A stretch of 10,020 nucleotides of DNA from Candidatus Nitrosopolaris nunavutensis (GTDB lineage: Archaea > Thermoproteota > Nitrososphaeria > Nitrososphaerales > Nitrososphaeraceae), in the NCBI GenBank assembly GCA_002501855.1, contig DAOM01000031.1, forward strand, positions 13,279-23,298, in the 5' to 3' direction. Positions 1,879 through 9,687 of the stretch are shown in pieces. The position numbers and the translations under genes are program-made. Every line of letters starts with the position of its first letter. Positions within the stretch are counted from its first letter, which is position 1. The notes under the pieces are model-generated. The model was not told the origin of the DNA. It saw only the letters and a program-made list of their open reading frames with translations, and ran no database searches.

Positions 1879-2928
1879 ATGAAAGCAGCTGTATTCCGAG
1901 AATATAGCAAAGATCCCACACAAGTCATCAAAATCGAAGACATCGACATGCCAAAGCTGAAACCAAACGAAGTTATGATAAAGGTAGAATTAGCATCATA
2001 TAACTATAATGACTTATGGGCTATCTGGGGCGAGCCAATCAAGACACCGCTGCCACATATTTCTGGCAGTGATGTCGCTGGCACCATTGTGGAAGTCGGC
2101 GAGGACGTTACTAAACTCAAGCCTGGTGATAGGGCAGTGTCACACTCAAATATGAGCTGCAGAGTCTGCGATATGTGCACGGCAGGAAGGGAATATGACT
2201 GCAACGATAGAACTATTTGGGGTTTCCAAACAGGCCCACTTTGGGGTGGTTTTGCACAGTATACACATCTACCAGAGGTAAACGTTTCCAAAATACCGGA
2301 AAATGTTTCATTTGAAACTGCAGCAGCGGTCTCAATGGTTGGGATGACTGCCTGGCATATGTTAGTGGCCAGGGCCAGGATTAGGCCCGGTCAAACAGTT
2401 TTGATAATGGGCGGTACTAGCGGTGTAGGAATGGCTGGTATTCAAATAGCAAAACTGTATAACTGTACAGTCATTGCCACAGCAGGCAACAAGCAAAAAA
2501 TGGACAAGTGTATCGAGATCGGCGCCGACGACGTTGTTAATCATAGAGAAGCAGATTGGTCTAAGAAGGTAAGGGAAATTACAAAGAAACAGGGAGTAGA
2601 TGTTGTCTTCGAACATATCGGGAAAGCGACATTTCCACAGGGAGTTGCGCTTCTAAAGATTGGCGGAACTCTTGTCGCAACAGGCGCAACGACTGGTTAC
2701 GATACTACTCTCGACTTGAGATATCTTTTCTTTAAAGGAACAAATTTGCTGGGGTCGACACAGGGGACTAAAGCCGAACTCGAAGAAGTAATCCATTGGA
2801 CGAGCAGAGGCAAGATAAAGCCCGTAATTGATACAATTTTACCATTTAGCGACATGGTTAGAGGGCACGTAATGATGGCCAAAGCTGAACAGATTGGTAA
2901 GATCTTGACTACACCTCAGAAACTCTAA
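1879..2928 (+). CDS. Medium-chain (MDR) zinc-binding dehydrogenase/reductase
   Basis: The 349-residue protein is a medium-chain dehydrogenase/reductase with an N-terminal GroES-like domain (residues 1-130) and a Rossmann fold (about 150-300) whose nucleotide loop is GGTSGVG (178-184). A structural zinc site is intact: C94, C97, C100 and C108. The catalytic-zinc site is not: the usual Cys position reads YNYND (41-45) and the usual GHE is GSD (63-65). That favours a quinone- or enoyl-CoA-reductase-like enzyme over an alcohol dehydrogenase. Members of this class include archaeal acryloyl-CoA reductase and crotonyl-CoA reductase, so a CoA-thioester substrate, for instance in the thaumarchaeal 3-hydroxypropionate/4-hydroxybutyrate cycle, is possible but unproven. 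The ATG gives a standard start (MKAAVF). A CitE-like lyase follows 29 bases later, which supports CoA-thioester metabolism. Confidence 0.88.
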   Translation: MKAAVFREYSKDPTQVIKIEDIDMPKLKPNEVMIKVELASYNYNDLWAIWGEPIKTPLPHISGSDVAGTIVEVGEDVTKLKPGDRAVSHSNMSCRVCDMCTAGREYDCNDRTIWGFQTGPLWGGFAQYTHLPEVNVSKIPENVSFETAAAVSMVGMTAWHMLVARARIRPGQTVLIMGGTSGVGMAGIQIAKLYNCTVIATAGNKQKMDKCIEIGADDVVNHREADWSKKVREITKKQGVDVVFEHIGKATFPQGVALLKIGGTLVATGATTGYDTTLDLRYLFFKGTNLLGSTQGTKAELEEVIHWTSRGKIKPVIDTILPFSDMVRGHVMMAKAEQIGKILTTPQKL

Positions 2929-2957
2929 TCTCTCTCCTTCCTCTTTTCCATTTTTCG

Positions 2958-3833
2958 ATGTCAAGATTTAGAAGTCTATTATTTGTTCCTGGAATTAATC
3001 CACGGTTTGTCGATAAAGCCAAGAAATTGAATGCCGATATCATTTGCTTTGACTTAGAAGACTCTGTGCTTCCATCTGAAAAAGTCACAGCAAGAAAGAT
3101 GCTCGTACAAGCGTTAAAACAAAGAGCAAATTATAACTTAACAGAAAATGTGTATGTCAGGATAAACTCACCTGAATCGGGTATTTCAGGTAAAGACTTA
3201 ACATCTACAATTCAGAAAGGGCTCGACGGCATAGTTGTGCCCAAGGTAAGTGAGGAAAGCGAAATAGTGGAACTGTGTAGCCTTATTACTGAGTTGGAGC
3301 AAAAGAGGCGAATTGAAAAGAACCGTATAAAATTAATGCCATCTATAGAAACTGCTAAAGGGGTAGTGAACGCTCACTCGATTGCTAGGGCTGACTTAAG
3401 AGTAAACGCCTTAATCTTCGGGCTTTATGACTTCCTCCATGACATGCACCTCGATCATGCAGACAACGATGGAACTGGATATTCGTATGCACGGTGGAAA
3501 ATTCCCGTTGATGCCAGAGCTGCCGGGGTGGTAGCGATCGATGCCATCTGGCAGAAGGTCGATGATATTCCTGGACTAAGGAATGATGCCGCAAGTGCGA
3601 AACGATTGGGCTACGTAGGAAAGAGCATAATTCACCCAAACCATATAGACCCTGTACATGAAATTTTCAAGCCGAGCAAAATCGAAATTGGATGGGCTAC
3701 TAAAGTAGTAAACGTTTTGGGCCCGGCGATGCGAAAGGGAAAAGGCGGTGGCGTAGTAAAGCTAGAGGGAAAAATGATTGACGCAGCGCATTATAAGCAA
3801 GCGAAGGCCATTTTGGATATTGTCAACCAATGA
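2958..3833 (+). CDS. CitE/HpcH-HpaI family lyase (citrate lyase beta-like)
   Basis: The 291-residue TIM-barrel protein belongs to the HpcH/HpaI aldolase-citrate lyase family, magnesium enzymes that cleave or form C-C bonds in acyl-CoA compounds such as malyl-CoA and citramalyl-CoA. Landmarks are RSLLFVPG (5-12), the FDLEDSV stretch (31-37) followed by the EKVTAR segment (41-46), R68 in VRIN, GIVVPKV (91-97), the metal ligand E131 in the IETAKG motif, and D158 in the GLYDF motif. GKSIIHPNHID (221-231) is the conserved C-terminal substrate-closing segment. All expected active-site residues are present. No citrate lyase alpha or gamma genes are near, so it is a stand-alone CitE-like enzyme rather than citrate lyase. 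The spacer to the preceding gene is pyrimidine-rich and lacks a ribosome binding site and a TATA box; co-transcription with the reductase is likely. The exact substrate cannot be read from the sequence. Confidence 0.88.
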   Translation: MSRFRSLLFVPGINPRFVDKAKKLNADIICFDLEDSVLPSEKVTARKMLVQALKQRANYNLTENVYVRINSPESGISGKDLTSTIQKGLDGIVVPKVSEESEIVELCSLITELEQKRRIEKNRIKLMPSIETAKGVVNAHSIARADLRVNALIFGLYDFLHDMHLDHADNDGTGYSYARWKIPVDARAAGVVAIDAIWQKVDDIPGLRNDAASAKRLGYVGKSIIHPNHIDPVHEIFKPSKIEIGWATKVVNVLGPAMRKGKGGGVVKLEGKMIDAAHYKQAKAILDIVNQ

Positions 3834-4143: not shown

Positions 4144-4758
4144 TTGTTCACCGGTATCATACAGGGTCTTGCAGAAGTCAAATCGATCTCTAAAATCAGA
4201 AGCAACAACAAATCGGCTGATACCAAACTGTGCATAAATCTGGGAGGAAAACTCAAGGGAGATTTAAAAGTTGGCGATAGCCTAAGTATTAATGGAACCT
4301 GTCTAACGGCTACAAGGATATCGAAGACTGTCGACTTTGAAATAATAAATGAAACTATGAATCGCACGTGTCTTGGATTATTAAAAGCTGGGGACAAAGT
4401 AAACATTGAAAGGAGCTTAAGACTCGGTGACAGATTGGATGGACATTTCCTCCTTGGCCATGTGGACGGAATAGGCATAATTAAGAAGATCATTAAATCG
4501 CCAATCCAGACGAAGGTCTGGATAAGAATCCAGAATAAAAAACTAATGTCTTGGATAGTGCCAAAAGGTTCAATAGCGATAGACGGAGTCAGTCTTACAA
4601 TAATAGATATCAAAGATAAAGATAAGATGATCTCTGTGGCGTTGATTCCGCATACACTGGCTACAACTACACTCACATTAAAATCGATAGGGGAAAAAGT
4701 TAACGTCGAGACAGATATTATTGGCAAGTACTTATCGAGACATCTACCAATAAAATAG
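4144..4758 (+). CDS. ribE: Riboflavin synthase, bacterial-type two-domain alpha subunit
   Basis: This enzyme dismutates two 6,7-dimethyl-8-ribityllumazine molecules into riboflavin and the ribitylamino-pyrimidinedione. The 204-residue protein has two tandem lumazine-binding barrels: residues 1 to about 98 and about 99-195. Signature segments are the N-terminal MFTGIIQG, NGTCLTA (50-56), GDRLDGHFLLGHVDG (96-110), KGSIAIDGVSLT (141-152), IPHT (168-171) and VNVETDIIGKYL (187-198). The TTG start is firm because MFTGI is the invariant family N-terminus. Most archaea use an unrelated riboflavin synthase derived from lumazine synthase, so this bacterial/eukaryotic-type gene points to ancient transfer or to Thaumarchaeota, where I recall it being normal. 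It is first in the six-gene cluster, 55 bases ahead of ribB. Confidence 0.95.
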   Translation: MFTGIIQGLAEVKSISKIRSNNKSADTKLCINLGGKLKGDLKVGDSLSINGTCLTATRISKTVDFEIINETMNRTCLGLLKAGDKVNIERSLRLGDRLDGHFLLGHVDGIGIIKKIIKSPIQTKVWIRIQNKKLMSWIVPKGSIAIDGVSLTIIDIKDKDKMISVALIPHTLATTTLTLKSIGEKVNVETDIIGKYLSRHLPIK

Positions 4759-4813: not shown

Positions 4814-5503
4814 TTGGATTCAGTTGAGGGAGCTATCACCGCTTTAAGAAAGGGAAGATTCGTACTCGTCCACGACGAAATGGGACGAGAAGACGAGATC
4901 GATATGGTGATAGCTGCAGAGCAGATTAATCCGGATCATATTTCAACATTCAGAAGAATCGCAGGAGGCCTTATCTGCTTAGCAGTTGCGAATGAAATTG
5001 CAGTGAAATTGGGGCTAGTCTATATGCATGAGATCATTAAAGATCTGTCAAGGCTCAATCCGGTATTTAAGAAACTAACGTCAGGGAGATCGCCATACGG
5101 CGACAACCCTAGTTTTTCGATATCAGTTAACCATCGCGACACTTACACCGGTATTACTGACATTGACAGAGCATTGACAATCATGAAGATGGCTGAAGTT
5201 TGTAAAAAAATTGATTCAACTGGAGTTGATGAATTTTCAAACAATTTCCGTGCTCCTGGTCATGTCCCGATCTTAATAGCCTCAAAAGGCTTGCTTTACG
5301 GGAGAACGGGTCATACTGAATTATGCGTATATCTAATGAATATTGCCGGCCTAGTTCCTGCCGTAGCGATTTGCGAAATGTTGGATTCTACTACGCATAG
5401 GGCTCTATCGATAAAGAAGGCAAAAAAATATGCAAGCAAGAATAACATTCCCTTACTAGAATCAATTCAACTAAAGAAAGACGTGTACCAAGACGTATGC
5501 TAA
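4814..5503 (+). CDS. ribB: 3,4-dihydroxy-2-butanone 4-phosphate synthase
   Basis: The enzyme converts ribulose 5-phosphate to 3,4-dihydroxy-2-butanone 4-phosphate plus formate, supplying the four-carbon unit for lumazine synthase; it needs Mg2+. The 229-residue product is a stand-alone domain without the GTP cyclohydrolase II domain fused in many bacteria. Visible motifs are the acidic loop DEMGREDEIDMV (21-32), SVNHRDTYTGITDIDRA (104-120), FRAPGHVPIL (145-154) and GRTGHTELCVYLMNIAGL (163-180), with CEMLD (187-191). The Ile before Asp29-30 in the acidic loop, where bacteria have Gly, is a mild departure. The TTG start gives the usual N-terminus (MDSVEGAITALRKGRFVLV), and a TATA box sits where a leaderless start would need it. 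The ribH start lies 17 bases after the stop. Confidence 0.96.
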   Translation: MDSVEGAITALRKGRFVLVHDEMGREDEIDMVIAAEQINPDHISTFRRIAGGLICLAVANEIAVKLGLVYMHEIIKDLSRLNPVFKKLTSGRSPYGDNPSFSISVNHRDTYTGITDIDRALTIMKMAEVCKKIDSTGVDEFSNNFRAPGHVPILIASKGLLYGRTGHTELCVYLMNIAGLVPAVAICEMLDSTTHRALSIKKAKKYASKNNIPLLESIQLKKDVYQDVC

Positions 5504-5520
5504 GGTGTCATAATTTATAA

Positions 5521-5985
5521 TTGGATAAAGTTAGAATAGGAGTAGTAGTTTCAGAGTTTAACAGAGAGATTACTTTCCCAATGTTCGGTAGCGCAAAAAA
5601 GCAAGCGAAGAAGATGGATGCAATAATCACTTATGTATGCTATGTTCCCGGGTCATACGATATGCCGGTGATAGTCCAAGAGCTTCTGAAAAAAAAAGAC
5701 GTGGATGCTGCAGTTACCCTGGGCGCAGTAATCAAAGGCGAGACTAACCATGATGAGATAGTCGCAGAAAATGCTGCCAGATTGATTGCTGATTTGTCCG
5801 TTAAACATAGCAAGCCAGTCGCACTGGGGATTACCGGTCCTAATATGAGCTTTAAACAAGCAAAAGACCGAAGCGAAATTGTTCCCATCCGCGCAGTCAT
5901 TAGCGCAGTTAATATGGCAACGAGAATTAAAAAAATAAGAGAAGAGAACTCAAGGCTTGCAGGTAAGATGAAAATAATACGTTGA
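5521..5985 (+). CDS. ribH: 6,7-dimethyl-8-ribityllumazine synthase
   Basis: This enzyme condenses 5-amino-6-ribitylamino-2,4-pyrimidinedione with dihydroxybutanone phosphate to give the lumazine precursor of riboflavin; the family forms pentamers or 60-mers. The 154-residue protein shows the substrate aromatic F13 in SEFN (11-14), VPGSYDMP (42-49), GAVIKGETNHDEIV (68-81) with the catalytic His at 77, GITGPNMSFKQA (103-114), R117 in the phosphate-binding stretch, and a Lys-rich tail. The TTG start yields the standard MDKVRIGVVVSEFN head. A weak AAGGTG ribosome binding site (5502-5507) overlaps the ribB stop and is rather far, 13 bases, from the start. Its stop overlaps the arfA start in TTGA, which suggests coupled translation. 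Confidence 0.96.
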   Translation: MDKVRIGVVVSEFNREITFPMFGSAKKQAKKMDAIITYVCYVPGSYDMPVIVQELLKKKDVDAAVTLGAVIKGETNHDEIVAENAARLIADLSVKHSKPVALGITGPNMSFKQAKDRSEIVPIRAVISAVNMATRIKKIREENSRLAGKMKIIR

Positions 5986-6767
5986 CAATACAGCTCACAA
6001 TTATTAGAATCGAAGAATATGGTCCTTGGACTATTACTCTTGGTAGCGACAGGGAAGCGCGGCTGCAGATGCTTCAGGCAAATTTCTATTACGATTTGCA
6101 ACGACTATTTTCGGCGAAGGATTGTCTTGTTTATTTAAATAGATTTGATGAGTATTTTGCAATTACTAATGGTCTATCAGTTGCGGATCATCTAGTAATC
6201 GAGAGTGAACTTTCCAGTCTTTATAAAAAACTCAAGCTGTCTATGGCTATTGGGAATGGCGAAACGCCATATCAAGCAAATTTGGACGCATACAACACCC
6301 GGAAAATGGGAGAACTAGGTACCGACAAAGCAAGAATTTTCGCGAGCGCGGCGGTGCAATTCTCAATGTCGAACTCGATACCAAGAGGCAATGAAGTTGT
6401 GCAAATAATGCATATCGATATGAATAATTCTGCTGAAATAGGCTCCAAGCTGTCTCCCTATGAAATGACGTGTCTGATTATCAAGATCTACGCTAGGCTC
6501 TCAGAGGAATTTGTTAAGAAAGAATCGTTGACTTTCTTTCTGGGAGGAGACAATTTTATGGTTGTATCAAATGCTGCTACAAAACAAGATGCAGAGGAGA
6601 CTATAATGAAGGTTACTCAAGGCACGAATATCAAACTAAATTGTGGGATAGGGATTGGAAGGACTGGGAGAAAAGCTGCCAACGCCGCTACAAAAGCACT
6701 TGACACGATTAGAGACCTCCGACATGTCGGGAAGGATCTACCAGTTTATGAAGTAGAATGTCTCTAA
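5982..6767 (+). CDS. arfA: GTP cyclohydrolase III (archaeal, FAPy-forming)
   Basis: The archaea-specific GTP cyclohydrolase III opens the imidazole ring of GTP and releases pyrophosphate, giving 2-amino-5-formylamino-6-ribosylamino-4(3H)-pyrimidinone 5'-phosphate and keeping the formyl group. The 261-residue product is close to the roughly 268 residues of the Methanocaldococcus enzyme. Conserved segments are EYGPW (12-16), RFDEYFAITNG (54-64), GNGETPYQA (91-99), the metal-binding HIDMNN (144-149), FFLGGDNFMVVSN (185-197) and GIGIGRTGRKAANAA (222-236). The GGDN element resembles the GGDEF motif of nucleotide cyclases, to which the fold is related. The TTG start overlaps the ribH stop by four bases, and the 3' end overlaps the amidohydrolase by ten. 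Because the product keeps its formyl group, a deformylase is needed next. Confidence 0.95.
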   Translation: MTIQLTIIRIEEYGPWTITLGSDREARLQMLQANFYYDLQRLFSAKDCLVYLNRFDEYFAITNGLSVADHLVIESELSSLYKKLKLSMAIGNGETPYQANLDAYNTRKMGELGTDKARIFASAAVQFSMSNSIPRGNEVVQIMHIDMNNSAEIGSKLSPYEMTCLIIKIYARLSEEFVKKESLTFFLGGDNFMVVSNAATKQDAEETIMKVTQGTNIKLNCGIGIGRTGRKAANAATKALDTIRDLRHVGKDLPVYEVECL

Positions 6768-8050
6768 TTCTCAAGAATGTTAGTCTGCTTCTCGGCAAAG
6801 ACTTAACTTTTGTTGCAGAGGGTTATCTGGAGATTGGGAAAGATGGTATAATAAAACAAGCAAAACGTGGACCATACCATCGCGGCGAAGACAAGGAAGC
6901 ACACAACAATACAATATTTGATGCAGAAGGATTTCTCATAATCCCCGGTCTTATCAACGCTCACACACATATAGGAGATTCACTGGGAAAAGATGTTGCA
7001 GTAGATTCAGGACTAGATGCAAGAGTTCATCCAATACATGGAGCAAAACAAAAAATATTACAAAGAAGTAAACCGGATCATTTAAAGACATTTATCAGAA
7101 GTTCTGCGTTGTCTATGATGAAAAAGGGGATAACTACCTTCGCAGACTTTCGCGAGGGTGGTACTGAGGGAGTCAAATTATTAAGAGATGCAATTTCTGG
7201 ATTACCCATCAAATGTATCGTATTTGGTCGAACCGAGTATTATGTTGATATAACATCATCTGCCACCGGCGCCAGCCAACGAAATCTTCCTTCCAGTTCA
7301 TTGCAGATGGCTTCCGATGTTTTAGAAATTTCTGATGGTTTGGGAATCAGCGGAGCAAACGAAAATAGCGACGAAACACTGCAACAGTATAGAAATTTAG
7401 TTCGAGCCAGGAACACAAGTGCAACGAAAGATAAGAAGAAGAAGATGCTAACAGCGATTCATGCCGCTGAATCTGAGAACACCATGCAACTTTCGAAATC
7501 ATATACCGGTAGGACAGAAGTTGCTCGAATAATGAAGTGTCTGAAGCCTGATATTATTATTCACATGACGCATGCCACTGAAAAGGATATTTCAATGGTA
7601 GCGAGAAATCGAACAGGAATAGTTGTTTGTCCTAGAGCAAATGGGATTGTGGGGGCTGGCGTCCCGAGGGTCGCGAAAATGTTAGACCTAGGTTGCATCA
7701 TCGGTATTGGGACTGACAACGTGATGTTGAATTCTCCGGATATTTTACGGGAGTTAGATTATATCTGGAAGGTGTCACGGTCTGTCGAACGTATCTTTCT
7801 GAGTGCCAGGGATATACTAAAGATGGCAACAGTAAATAACGCCGAAATTCTCAGACTAAATTCGGGGTATATTCAGTCTGGCCGGGCAGCAGATATTATT
7901 TTTATTGATAAAAGCCATGTAGATCTGTACCCTATACATAATCCATTCGCTACTATAGTTCACAGAGCTACCGAGGCTTCGATCAAGGCGGTCATGATAG
8001 ATGGAAGGTTTGTAGACGGAGCACAATTCGAATTTGCGAATAACAATTAA
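6758..8050 (+). CDS. COG0402-like amidohydrolase, candidate riboflavin-pathway deaminase or deformylase
   Basis: The 430-residue protein is an amidohydrolase-superfamily enzyme of the guanine/cytosine/SAH-deaminase type. It has an N-terminal beta-sandwich part (1-60), a TIM barrel, and a C-terminal return of the sandwich (about 375-420, GRAADIIFID). Metal and catalytic residues are all present: H69 and H71 in the PGLINAHTHIGDS motif, H235 and E238 in the IHAAE motif, H269/H272 in the IIIHMTHATE motif, and D320 in GIGTDN. The HxxE pair favours hydrolytic deamination over simple amide cleavage. It is the only ATG-start gene of the cluster and overlaps arfA by 10 and arfC by 17 bases. The archaeal pathway needs both a deformylase and a pyrimidine C2 deaminase, and no known gene for either is seen here. 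The family and its activity are firm; the pathway role is inference. It could still be an unrelated deaminase. Confidence 0.85.
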   Translation: MSLILKNVSLLLGKDLTFVAEGYLEIGKDGIIKQAKRGPYHRGEDKEAHNNTIFDAEGFLIIPGLINAHTHIGDSLGKDVAVDSGLDARVHPIHGAKQKILQRSKPDHLKTFIRSSALSMMKKGITTFADFREGGTEGVKLLRDAISGLPIKCIVFGRTEYYVDITSSATGASQRNLPSSSLQMASDVLEISDGLGISGANENSDETLQQYRNLVRARNTSATKDKKKKMLTAIHAAESENTMQLSKSYTGRTEVARIMKCLKPDIIIHMTHATEKDISMVARNRTGIVVCPRANGIVGAGVPRVAKMLDLGCIIGIGTDNVMLNSPDILRELDYIWKVSRSVERIFLSARDILKMATVNNAEILRLNSGYIQSGRAADIIFIDKSHVDLYPIHNPFATIVHRATEASIKAVMIDGRFVDGAQFEFANNN

Positions 8051-9153: not shown

Positions 9154-9687
9154 TTATCGTCCTGAATCTGAAGCAGTACTACTTTTGGAGCTGCCATATT
9201 TTTCATAGTAAACTAATCTATCGAGCGGCAGACGCTTCTTACTTTTACCGGTCATCTTCCTTGCCGGATATCCAAAGCCTACTATGATTGTAGGACTCAA
9301 CTCGTTTGGTATTCCAAAGTCGCCTCGAAGTTTTTCTTCCCTTATTCCTGTAAACAGCCCCGAGCCCACCTCGTGATTCCATGCGGCCAGTTGCATATTC
9401 TGTAGCACTCTTCCTGCATCAACCAAATGAAAATTGTACTCTGGATTTGTCAGTACTATTACTGCAAAATTGGCATCTCTAACCCAGCTTCCGCTTGTAC
9501 TATCTTCTGCCAACTTCTTGAGATTCTGTTTATCGTTCACTAGGATAAATCGCCAGTGTTGAGTATTAAGGCCACTGCCTGTTAACCTTGCCGCCTCAAG
9601 CACCTTTGACCTTATTTCAGATGGAACATCCTGATTACTGAATTCTCTTACGTCTAGCTTGGTTATTATACATTCGAAAGTGTCCAT
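9154..9687 (-). CDS. Nitroreductase-family FMN-dependent oxidoreductase
   Basis: The 177-residue protein belongs to the nitroreductase family, homodimeric flavoproteins that pass electrons from NAD(P)H through FMN to nitro groups, quinones or other acceptors. Seen motifs are the FMN-phosphate stretch LDVREFSNQDVP (11-22), AARLTGSGLNTQHWRFILV (32-50), DAGRVLQNMQLAAWNHEVGS (90-109) with GLFTGI after it, and IVGFGYPARK (135-144); LDRLVYYEKYG (155-165) is the usual C-terminal ending. A 12-residue Ser-rich tail follows. The ATG at 9687 gives the expected start shortly before the VREF motif, with a GAGGA ribosome binding site very close to it. It faces the riboflavin cluster tail to tail, so it is not in that operon, though its cofactor is the pathway's product. 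The physiological substrate is unknown. Confidence 0.9.
   Translation of the reverse strand: MDTFECIITKLDVREFSNQDVPSEIRSKVLEAARLTGSGLNTQHWRFILVNDKQNLKKLAEDSTSGSWVRDANFAVIVLTNPEYNFHLVDAGRVLQNMQLAAWNHEVGSGLFTGIREEKLRGDFGIPNELSPTIIVGFGYPARKMTGKSKKRLPLDRLVYYEKYGSSKSSTASDSGR

Follow-up and report, generated by a model that had tools for sequence, protein, structure and literature searches.

In the sections of the literature that deal with the archaeal route, 5-amino-6-ribitylamino-uracil is described as common to the riboflavin and coenzyme F420 pathways (PMC3403918), reduction is placed before deamination (PMC13028884, PMC3403918), and the deaminase step is still assigned to RibD or called conserved in recent texts (PMC9478397, PMC13028884). 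In outline, a riboflavin role for another protein family is already in print: Table 6 of PMC8305020, the only paper on MJ0699 or HVO_2483 found among open-licence papers, lists HVO_2483 of Haloferax volcanii as a riboflavin biosynthesis prediction with reference to Rodionova 2017, gives its identity to MJ0699 of Methanocaldococcus jannaschii as 34% and adds "also predicted for MJ0699". The HVO_2483 row stands between arfC and a phosphatase gap, and from this order we read the listing as the deaminase step. In this study, we analyse a stretch of 10,020 nucleotides (the window; contig DAOM01000031.1, positions 13,279 to 23,298) from Candidatus Nitrosopolaris nunavutensis, in which an amidohydrolase gene lies between the riboflavin genes arfA and arfC, and we present evidence that this gene belongs to the MJ0699 family and probably encodes the riboflavin-pathway deaminase.

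Several described enzymes can be compared with the window protein. Bacterial RibD and yeast Rib2 catalyze what we propose to be the equivalent chemical step, their fold being unrelated, whereas the ArfB and BrbF formamidases act at an adjacent step of the same pathway and belong to the creatininase family (PF02633), members of which are encoded in the same genomes. The isocytosine deaminase Vcz and guanine deaminases remove the 2-amino group of a 2-amino-4-oxopyrimidine ring hydrolytically and share an HxH...HxxE...H...D site. Both Vcz (PDB 7ww2, 8is4) and the guanine deaminases (2i9u, 2uz9, 6ohb) have the superfamily and fold of the window protein but show only 17-22% identity to it and act on free bases. 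DadD, which we take to be the name, with the number MJ1541, of the 5'-deoxyadenosine/S-adenosylhomocysteine (SAH) deaminase, is likewise an archaeal deaminase of the amidohydrolase superfamily with the same metal-site residues.

Operon context and family of the amidohydrolase

The amidohydrolase gene is the fifth in a tight run of six genes with the order ribE-ribB-ribH-arfA-amidohydrolase-arfC, the identities of which were assigned with Pfam and NCBIfam (Table 1). An earlier note on this DNA had described an open reading frame (ORF) that shares 10 bases with arfA and 17 with arfC, and an ArfC protein devoid of a deaminase domain. The overlaps at the start and end of the amidohydrolase ORF were confirmed from the ORF coordinates (the TTG start of arfC being that chosen by the ORF finder), and the Pfam search of the window ArfC found the reductase domain PF01872 and no deaminase domain. 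At E<=0.001, 4,525 homologues of the amidohydrolase were found among 7,999 scored, the closest coming from Candidatus Nitrosopolaris and other Nitrososphaeria; the gene, its homologues and its linkage at the locus are observed far beyond chance.

The window protein matches NF005552 ("chlorohydrolase") with 329.2 bits, above the curated NCBI cut-off of 294, and its Pfam matches are Amidohydro_1 (E = 1.1e-44) and Amidohydro_3 only. Neither the creatininase family PF02633 of ArfB and BrbF nor a cytidine-deaminase-like zinc domain of the RibD/Rib2 type was found in it by Pfam, and the structure model is a barrel, a predicted fold of the deaminase type. The scores with profiles of other deaminases are below their cut-offs, as shown for guanine deaminase (TIGR02967, 69.3 versus 375.4 bits), 5'-deoxyadenosine deaminase (NF005557, 97.7 versus 522) and methylthioadenosine/SAH deaminase (NF012037, 66.8 versus 779). 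H69, H71, H235, E238, H269 and D320 are invariant in a 40-row alignment and in 43/43 more diverse family rows; presumably, H235 is a metal ligand and E238 the proton shuttle, as elsewhere in the superfamily. The complete amidohydrolase site described in the earlier note therefore stands with these six residues and without H272, which was rejected as a catalytic residue since its position varies (H/N/R/K/F/Y/W/Q) across the diverse family rows.

Further positions mark the family: D74, K97 and N321 are found in 43/43 rows and E133, R293 and R403 in 42/43. The signature was derived from the same rows in which it was counted, and rows fetched later (8/8 with all 13 catalytic and signature residues) served as a subsequent check. 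A family-wide phosphate site formed by R132, R158 and R293 was considered and rejected, as only R293 is kept across the family.

These data bear on the idea that the window protein is a deaminase of the SAH/5'-deoxyadenosine/adenosine type which stands in the operon by chance. DadD has the same metal-site residues, but 14 DadD-like rows carry other residues at the six marker positions (M, I/V/M and G/S in place of D74, K97 and N321), save for E at position 133 in two rows. In an unrooted tree built from 57 rows, all 14 lie on one side of a branch with a support of 100/100; the family is monophyletic provided that the root falls among the DadD-like rows. The branch leading to row L138 is long, and L108 (Methanocaldococcus, wrong ORF) was left out of both tree and signature count. 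DadD-like proteins reside together with the family in the same genomes (M. jannaschii, L166; G119, G101, G139), while the window-type gene of G002, a Nitrosopolaris genome, is the only NF005552 match there, with no DadD beside it. Given also the scores far under the NF005557 and NF012037 cut-offs and a linkage to arfA/arfC that recurs in separate lineages, we consider such a chance association very unlikely, and a DadD paralogue was rejected on account of the separate clade and the residue signature.

The family could be connected to MJ0699 by gene order. NF005552 is over its cut-off in 13 of 14 genomes of the genus of Methanocaldococcus sp. SG1. In one Methanocaldococcus genome (G196), the match (588.5 bits) is located two genes past a fibrillarin gene, beyond a hisB-like gene, and the fibrillarin matches PDB 1fbn, "MJ fibrillarin homologue", without a difference across 230 residues. 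We take fibrillarin to be MJ0697 and hisB to be MJ0698, and because of this gene order the NF005552 member of M. jannaschii is MJ0699; the placement was made with G196, since synteny differed in Methanocaldococcus sp. SG1 (L012). MJ0699 shares 34% identity with the window protein over most of its length and differs from the window gene in not lying beside arf genes. The Haloferax volcanii control genome also has an NF005552 match; HVO_2483, listed as a riboflavin prediction like MJ0699 (PMC8305020, Table 6), was compared here via a Halorussus family protein, which is 31% identical to MJ0699. All 13 checked catalytic and signature positions are identical in MJ0699 and this Halorussus protein, and they likewise agree between MJ0699 and the window protein.

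Table 1 Features of the riboflavin locus in the window and ORFs with weak RibD matches in other genomes
Feature	Position	Strand	Basis
Amidohydrolase (430 amino acids) of the NF005552/MJ0699 family; proposed deaminase of 2,5-diamino-6-ribitylamino-4(3H)-pyrimidinone 5'-phosphate	6758..8050	+	ATG start; Pfam and NCBIfam
HTH metal-binding motif, residues 69-71, end of barrel strand 1	6962..6970	+	H69 and H71 in 43/43 family rows; strand from predicted barrel
HAAE motif, residues 235-238, with H235 and E238	7460..7471	+	H235 and E238 in 43/43 family rows
H269, end of barrel strand 6	7562..7564	+	Invariant; strand from predicted barrel
R293-A294-N295 with family-specific R293, just past strand 7	7634..7642	+	R293 in 42/43 family rows; I/V/T in 14 DadD-like rows
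D320-N321, catalytic D and family-specific N	7715..7720	+	43/43 family rows; G or S after D in 14 DadD-like rows
arfA, GTP cyclohydrolase III	5982..6767	+	PF05165 (GCH_III) 191.9 bits
arfC, pyrimidine reductase, 216 amino acids	8034..8684	+	TIGR01508 211.4 bits (cut-off 186.45); PF01872 (RibD_C) 163.2 bits
ribH, lumazine synthase	5521..5985	+	TIGR00114 121.2 bits (cut-off 84.6)
ribB, 3,4-dihydroxy-2-butanone 4-phosphate (DHBP) synthase	4814..5503	+	TIGR00506 203 bits (cut-off 177.45)
ribE, riboflavin synthase of bacterial type	4144..4758	+	TIGR00187 211 bits (cut-off 156.6)
ORFs matching the RibD deaminase domain weakly	G264:C1:2002973-2003359; G283:C1:2747965-2748393; G316:C1:759580-759966		Genomes also with the amidohydrolase near arfC

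Linkage to arfA and arfC and distribution in two phyla

Two samples, both requested at a completeness of >=90, were used: 151 genomes from the phylum to which G002 belongs, termed the window's phylum, which we take to be Thermoproteota in GTDB, and 119 genomes from that of G038, termed Halobacteriota. In 33 Nitrososphaeria-type loci, including L025, which is labelled "bacterium" only, the amidohydrolase gene is followed by arfC in all cases and preceded by arfA in 32; the sole locus without arfA upstream, L022, is on a contig that starts inside the amidohydrolase gene. Because these loci were found via the amidohydrolase gene itself, they are informative on linkage and not on presence.

Among the 151 genomes of the window's phylum, 46 have an NF005552 match of at least 110 bits, and all of these match ArfC and 43 match ArfA; in 42 of the 46, the gene is within 3 kb of arfA or arfC. 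The adjacent partner is arfA in G119, G068, G149, G101, G113, G125, G076 and G155 and arfC in G151, G157, G133 and G109. In the genomes over the NF005552 cut-off, both arfA and arfC are within 1 kb in 25/27 and arfC alone in 2/27. No row was left out at >=110 bits; at >=100 bits, the numbers of carriers, of those with ArfA and of those within 3 kb are 48, 45 and 42, respectively, the difference being due to G153 and G143. Left out were G173, whose ArfA match is under the family cut-off, and ten genomes in which NF005552 scores 101-109 bits and ArfA is not matched (G082, G130, G163, G169, G088, G097, G148, G184, G187, G067). The fetched proteins from G130, G163 and G067, as well as a lower-scoring second match of G097, all fall into the DadD-like clade. 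Conversely, 17 of the 60 genomes with ArfA have no NF005552 row at >=110 bits, and the fetched proteins of ten of them (G052, G117, G171, G099, G129, G058, G081, G111, G153, G143) fall on the same side of the tree as the family. No family ORF is present near ArfA in G107 and G171, the latter genome having one elsewhere (L163).

In Halobacteriota, NF005552 reaches at least 150 bits in 100/119 genomes, whereas ArfA was found in 21, a creatininase in 35 and GTP cyclohydrolase II (GCH II) in 29. Co-occurrence, for which a test had been suggested in the earlier note, is seen in both samples, and it is ArfC, not ArfA, that the amidohydrolase family tracks. The 21 genomes with ArfA, which we take to be haloarchaea (the fetched G302 and G221 proteins group with Halorussus in the tree), all carry the family gene (239-301 bits) and a creatininase. 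In sixteen genomes that match neither ArfA nor GCH II, the distance between the family gene and arfC is 1.3-2.2 kb.

This distribution speaks against a further alternative, also raised in the earlier note, namely that the amidohydrolase replaces ArfB as a formamide hydrolase which deformylates the ArfA product. The superfamily can hydrolyse amides, and the gene directly follows arfA in the window as in 32/33 Nitrososphaeria-type loci. A creatininase, however, was found in 38/42 genomes behind the studied loci, among them 32/33 of the Nitrososphaeria type, as well as in all ArfA-containing Halobacteriota; these proteins are candidates for the creatininase-type ArfB that the earlier note had suggested searching for. 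Moreover, ArfA is lacking in 79 of the 100 Halobacteriota carriers. Formate is released by GCH II itself, and no formyl intermediate leaves the enzyme, so that a deformylase has no work in genomes relying on it, whereas a deaminase still does. Of the 29 GCH II genomes, 12 have the family gene at >=150 bits, and in seven of these it is located 89-119 bp from arfC on the opposite strand, in genomes that lack ArfA and carry a creatininase without explained function. The other 17 score 102-145 bits for NF005552; six of their proteins were fetched together with those of G295 and G316 (the latter with 91% identity to a row included before), and these are the 8/8 rows with the complete signature mentioned above. 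Replacement of ArfB was therefore rejected as highly improbable.

Some observations on neighbouring and related genes may be added. The riboflavin synthase of the window (4144-4758) is of the bacterial RibE type, Lum_binding being matched twice, and not archaeal RibC. Upstream of the rib operon, a gene for a zinc-type alcohol dehydrogenase and one for a HpcH/HpaI-type lyase are present (1879-3833), the latter type being found upstream of the rib genes in 19/33 Nitrososphaeria-type loci (some contigs are too short to judge). A nitroreductase-family gene (PF00881) is located downstream on the minus strand (9154-9687), with 92-96% identity in L008, L009 and L010. A second GTP cyclohydrolase III match, G102:C9:5396-6088, lies away from the rib operon. 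GCH II and a creatininase-family gene occur together in G038, G243, G259, G269, G293, G298 and G303, where the creatininase is unexplained. In 69/119 Halobacteriota genomes, neither ArfA (PF05165) nor GCH II (PF00925) is matched, although each matches the reductase profile and the amidohydrolase is present in almost every one; the control genome of M. acetivorans also has no match to the ArfA and GCH II profiles. In L127 and L128 (Halobacteriota), genes judged by eye to be of the UspA type and CBS-domain-like lie between the amidohydrolase gene and arfC on the same strand.

Proposed reaction and evidence for and against it

A RibD-type deaminase was searched for with TIGR00326, which is over its cut-off in 10/14 control genomes (a set that includes ten bacteria; the passing genomes are not itemised), in 0/151 genomes of the window's phylum and in 0/119 Halobacteriota genomes. 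Weak matches to its deaminase part occur in 19/151 genomes, with up to 45.5 bits, and none of the 60 ArfA genomes of the window's phylum has a match to this part. All 119 Halobacteriota genomes match the profile, nearly all in its reductase part.

We estimate the probability that the window gene encodes the archaeal riboflavin-pathway deaminase at roughly 0.8. This reading, which was the main inference of the earlier note, draws on the operon, the orthology with MJ0699, the co-occurrence with ArfC, the conserved catalytic residues and the predicted fold, and it agrees with the genomic comparisons, in that no RibD deaminase domain was found in the 60 ArfA genomes of the window's phylum and the gene stands in riboflavin loci in most carriers of the window's phylum. 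The note's presentation of a "missing" enzyme is supported as far as the pathway is concerned, not as regards novelty, because MJ0699 is already listed as a pathway prediction (PMC8305020, citing Rodionova 2017). What is added here is the orthology with MJ0699, the operon evidence from Nitrososphaeria and from elsewhere in the same phylum, and the use of GCH II genomes to distinguish a deaminase from a deformylase.

According to this proposal, the step for which bacteria (RibD) and yeast (Rib2) use a cytidine-deaminase-like fold would be carried out in archaea by a member of the amidohydrolase superfamily. H69, H71, H235 and D320 would bind a metal ion, which, assisted by E238 and H269, would activate a water molecule for attack on C2 of the 2-amino-4-oxopyrimidine ring in the ArfC product, 2,5-diamino-6-ribitylamino-4(3H)-pyrimidinone 5'-phosphate. 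Ammonia would leave, giving 5-amino-6-ribitylamino-uracil 5'-phosphate, which would then pass to a phosphatase and to lumazine synthase. The reaction, the residue roles and the exact, reduced and phosphorylated, substrate are what we infer; K97, R293 and R403, which are specific to the family, may help to bind the phosphate or the ribityl chain, a guess based on charge and conservation.

The enzyme might also act in the same pathway at another place, i.e. before ArfC as in the bacterial order, on a dephosphorylated substrate, or in the clean-up of damaged pyrimidine intermediates. The order of steps cannot be fixed by comparative genomics, and guanine-like off-pathway compounds are also compatible with the fold. 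Set against this are the broad presence together with ArfC, which suits an essential step better than clean-up, and the precedence of reduction in archaea, as stated in the parts of the pathway literature cited above (PMC13028884, PMC3403918). We regard these variants as unlikely.

Several observations weigh against the proposed deaminase function. Co-occurrence with ArfC does not distinguish a deaminase from an enzyme of some other late step, or from a protein that acts in regulation or salvage. In the window's phylum, 7/60 ArfA genomes have no confirmed family member (no match in G107; weak matches of 50-62 bits in G050, G066, G093, G074, G159 and G135), and one of the 14 Methanocaldococcus genomes has no NF005552 family gene. 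The earlier note's question whether orthologues lie in riboflavin loci is answered differently in the two phyla, for in Halobacteriota the gene is within 3 kb of arfC in only 23 of 99 carriers (G257, with a weak ArfC row, was left out of this grouping) and in none of the 21 genomes with ArfA; no arf gene is found within 15 kb around MJ0699. R132 and R158 do not vary around the clade of the window protein but have not been retained in the second group of the tree. At least three Halobacteriota genomes among the matches listed (G264, G283, G316) have an ORF of about 150 amino acids that matches the RibD deaminase domain weakly (TIGR00326 positions 1-136 or 1-150, 55-60 bits), and these small ORFs may represent a second deaminase that is unexplained by the proposal. 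Finally, no assay of an archaeal riboflavin deaminase was found in the open-licence pathway literature.

Significance for riboflavin and F420 biosynthesis in archaea

If the proposed function is true, a gene that goes by "chlorohydrolase", "amidohydrolase" or "cytosine deaminase" in many archaea would receive a correct annotation, and an enzyme that is also needed by F420 makers would be named. The archaeal deaminase step is still credited to RibD in the relevant parts of recent texts (PMC9478397, PMC13028884), yet the archaea sampled here show no RibD over the cut-off. In a study of sponge Thaumarchaeota, as far as the section concerned goes, a COG0402 "cytosine deaminase" was interpreted together with other genes as creatinine degradation (PMC7848895), and this reading may need correcting: in Nitrososphaeria, such COG0402 genes may be the riboflavin amidohydrolase and the accompanying creatininase may be ArfB. 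In a wider perspective, it seems fairly likely that the general riboflavin deaminase of archaea is a recruited metal-dependent amidohydrolase with no relation to RibD/Rib2 and that, through the shared intermediate, it would also serve coenzyme F420; that it would operate behind three starts of the pathway, i.e. ArfA plus ArfB, GCH II, and another first enzyme in many Halobacteriota; and that some annotations of "cytosine deaminase plus creatininase" as creatinine breakdown in ammonia-oxidising archaea would in fact refer to riboflavin genes.

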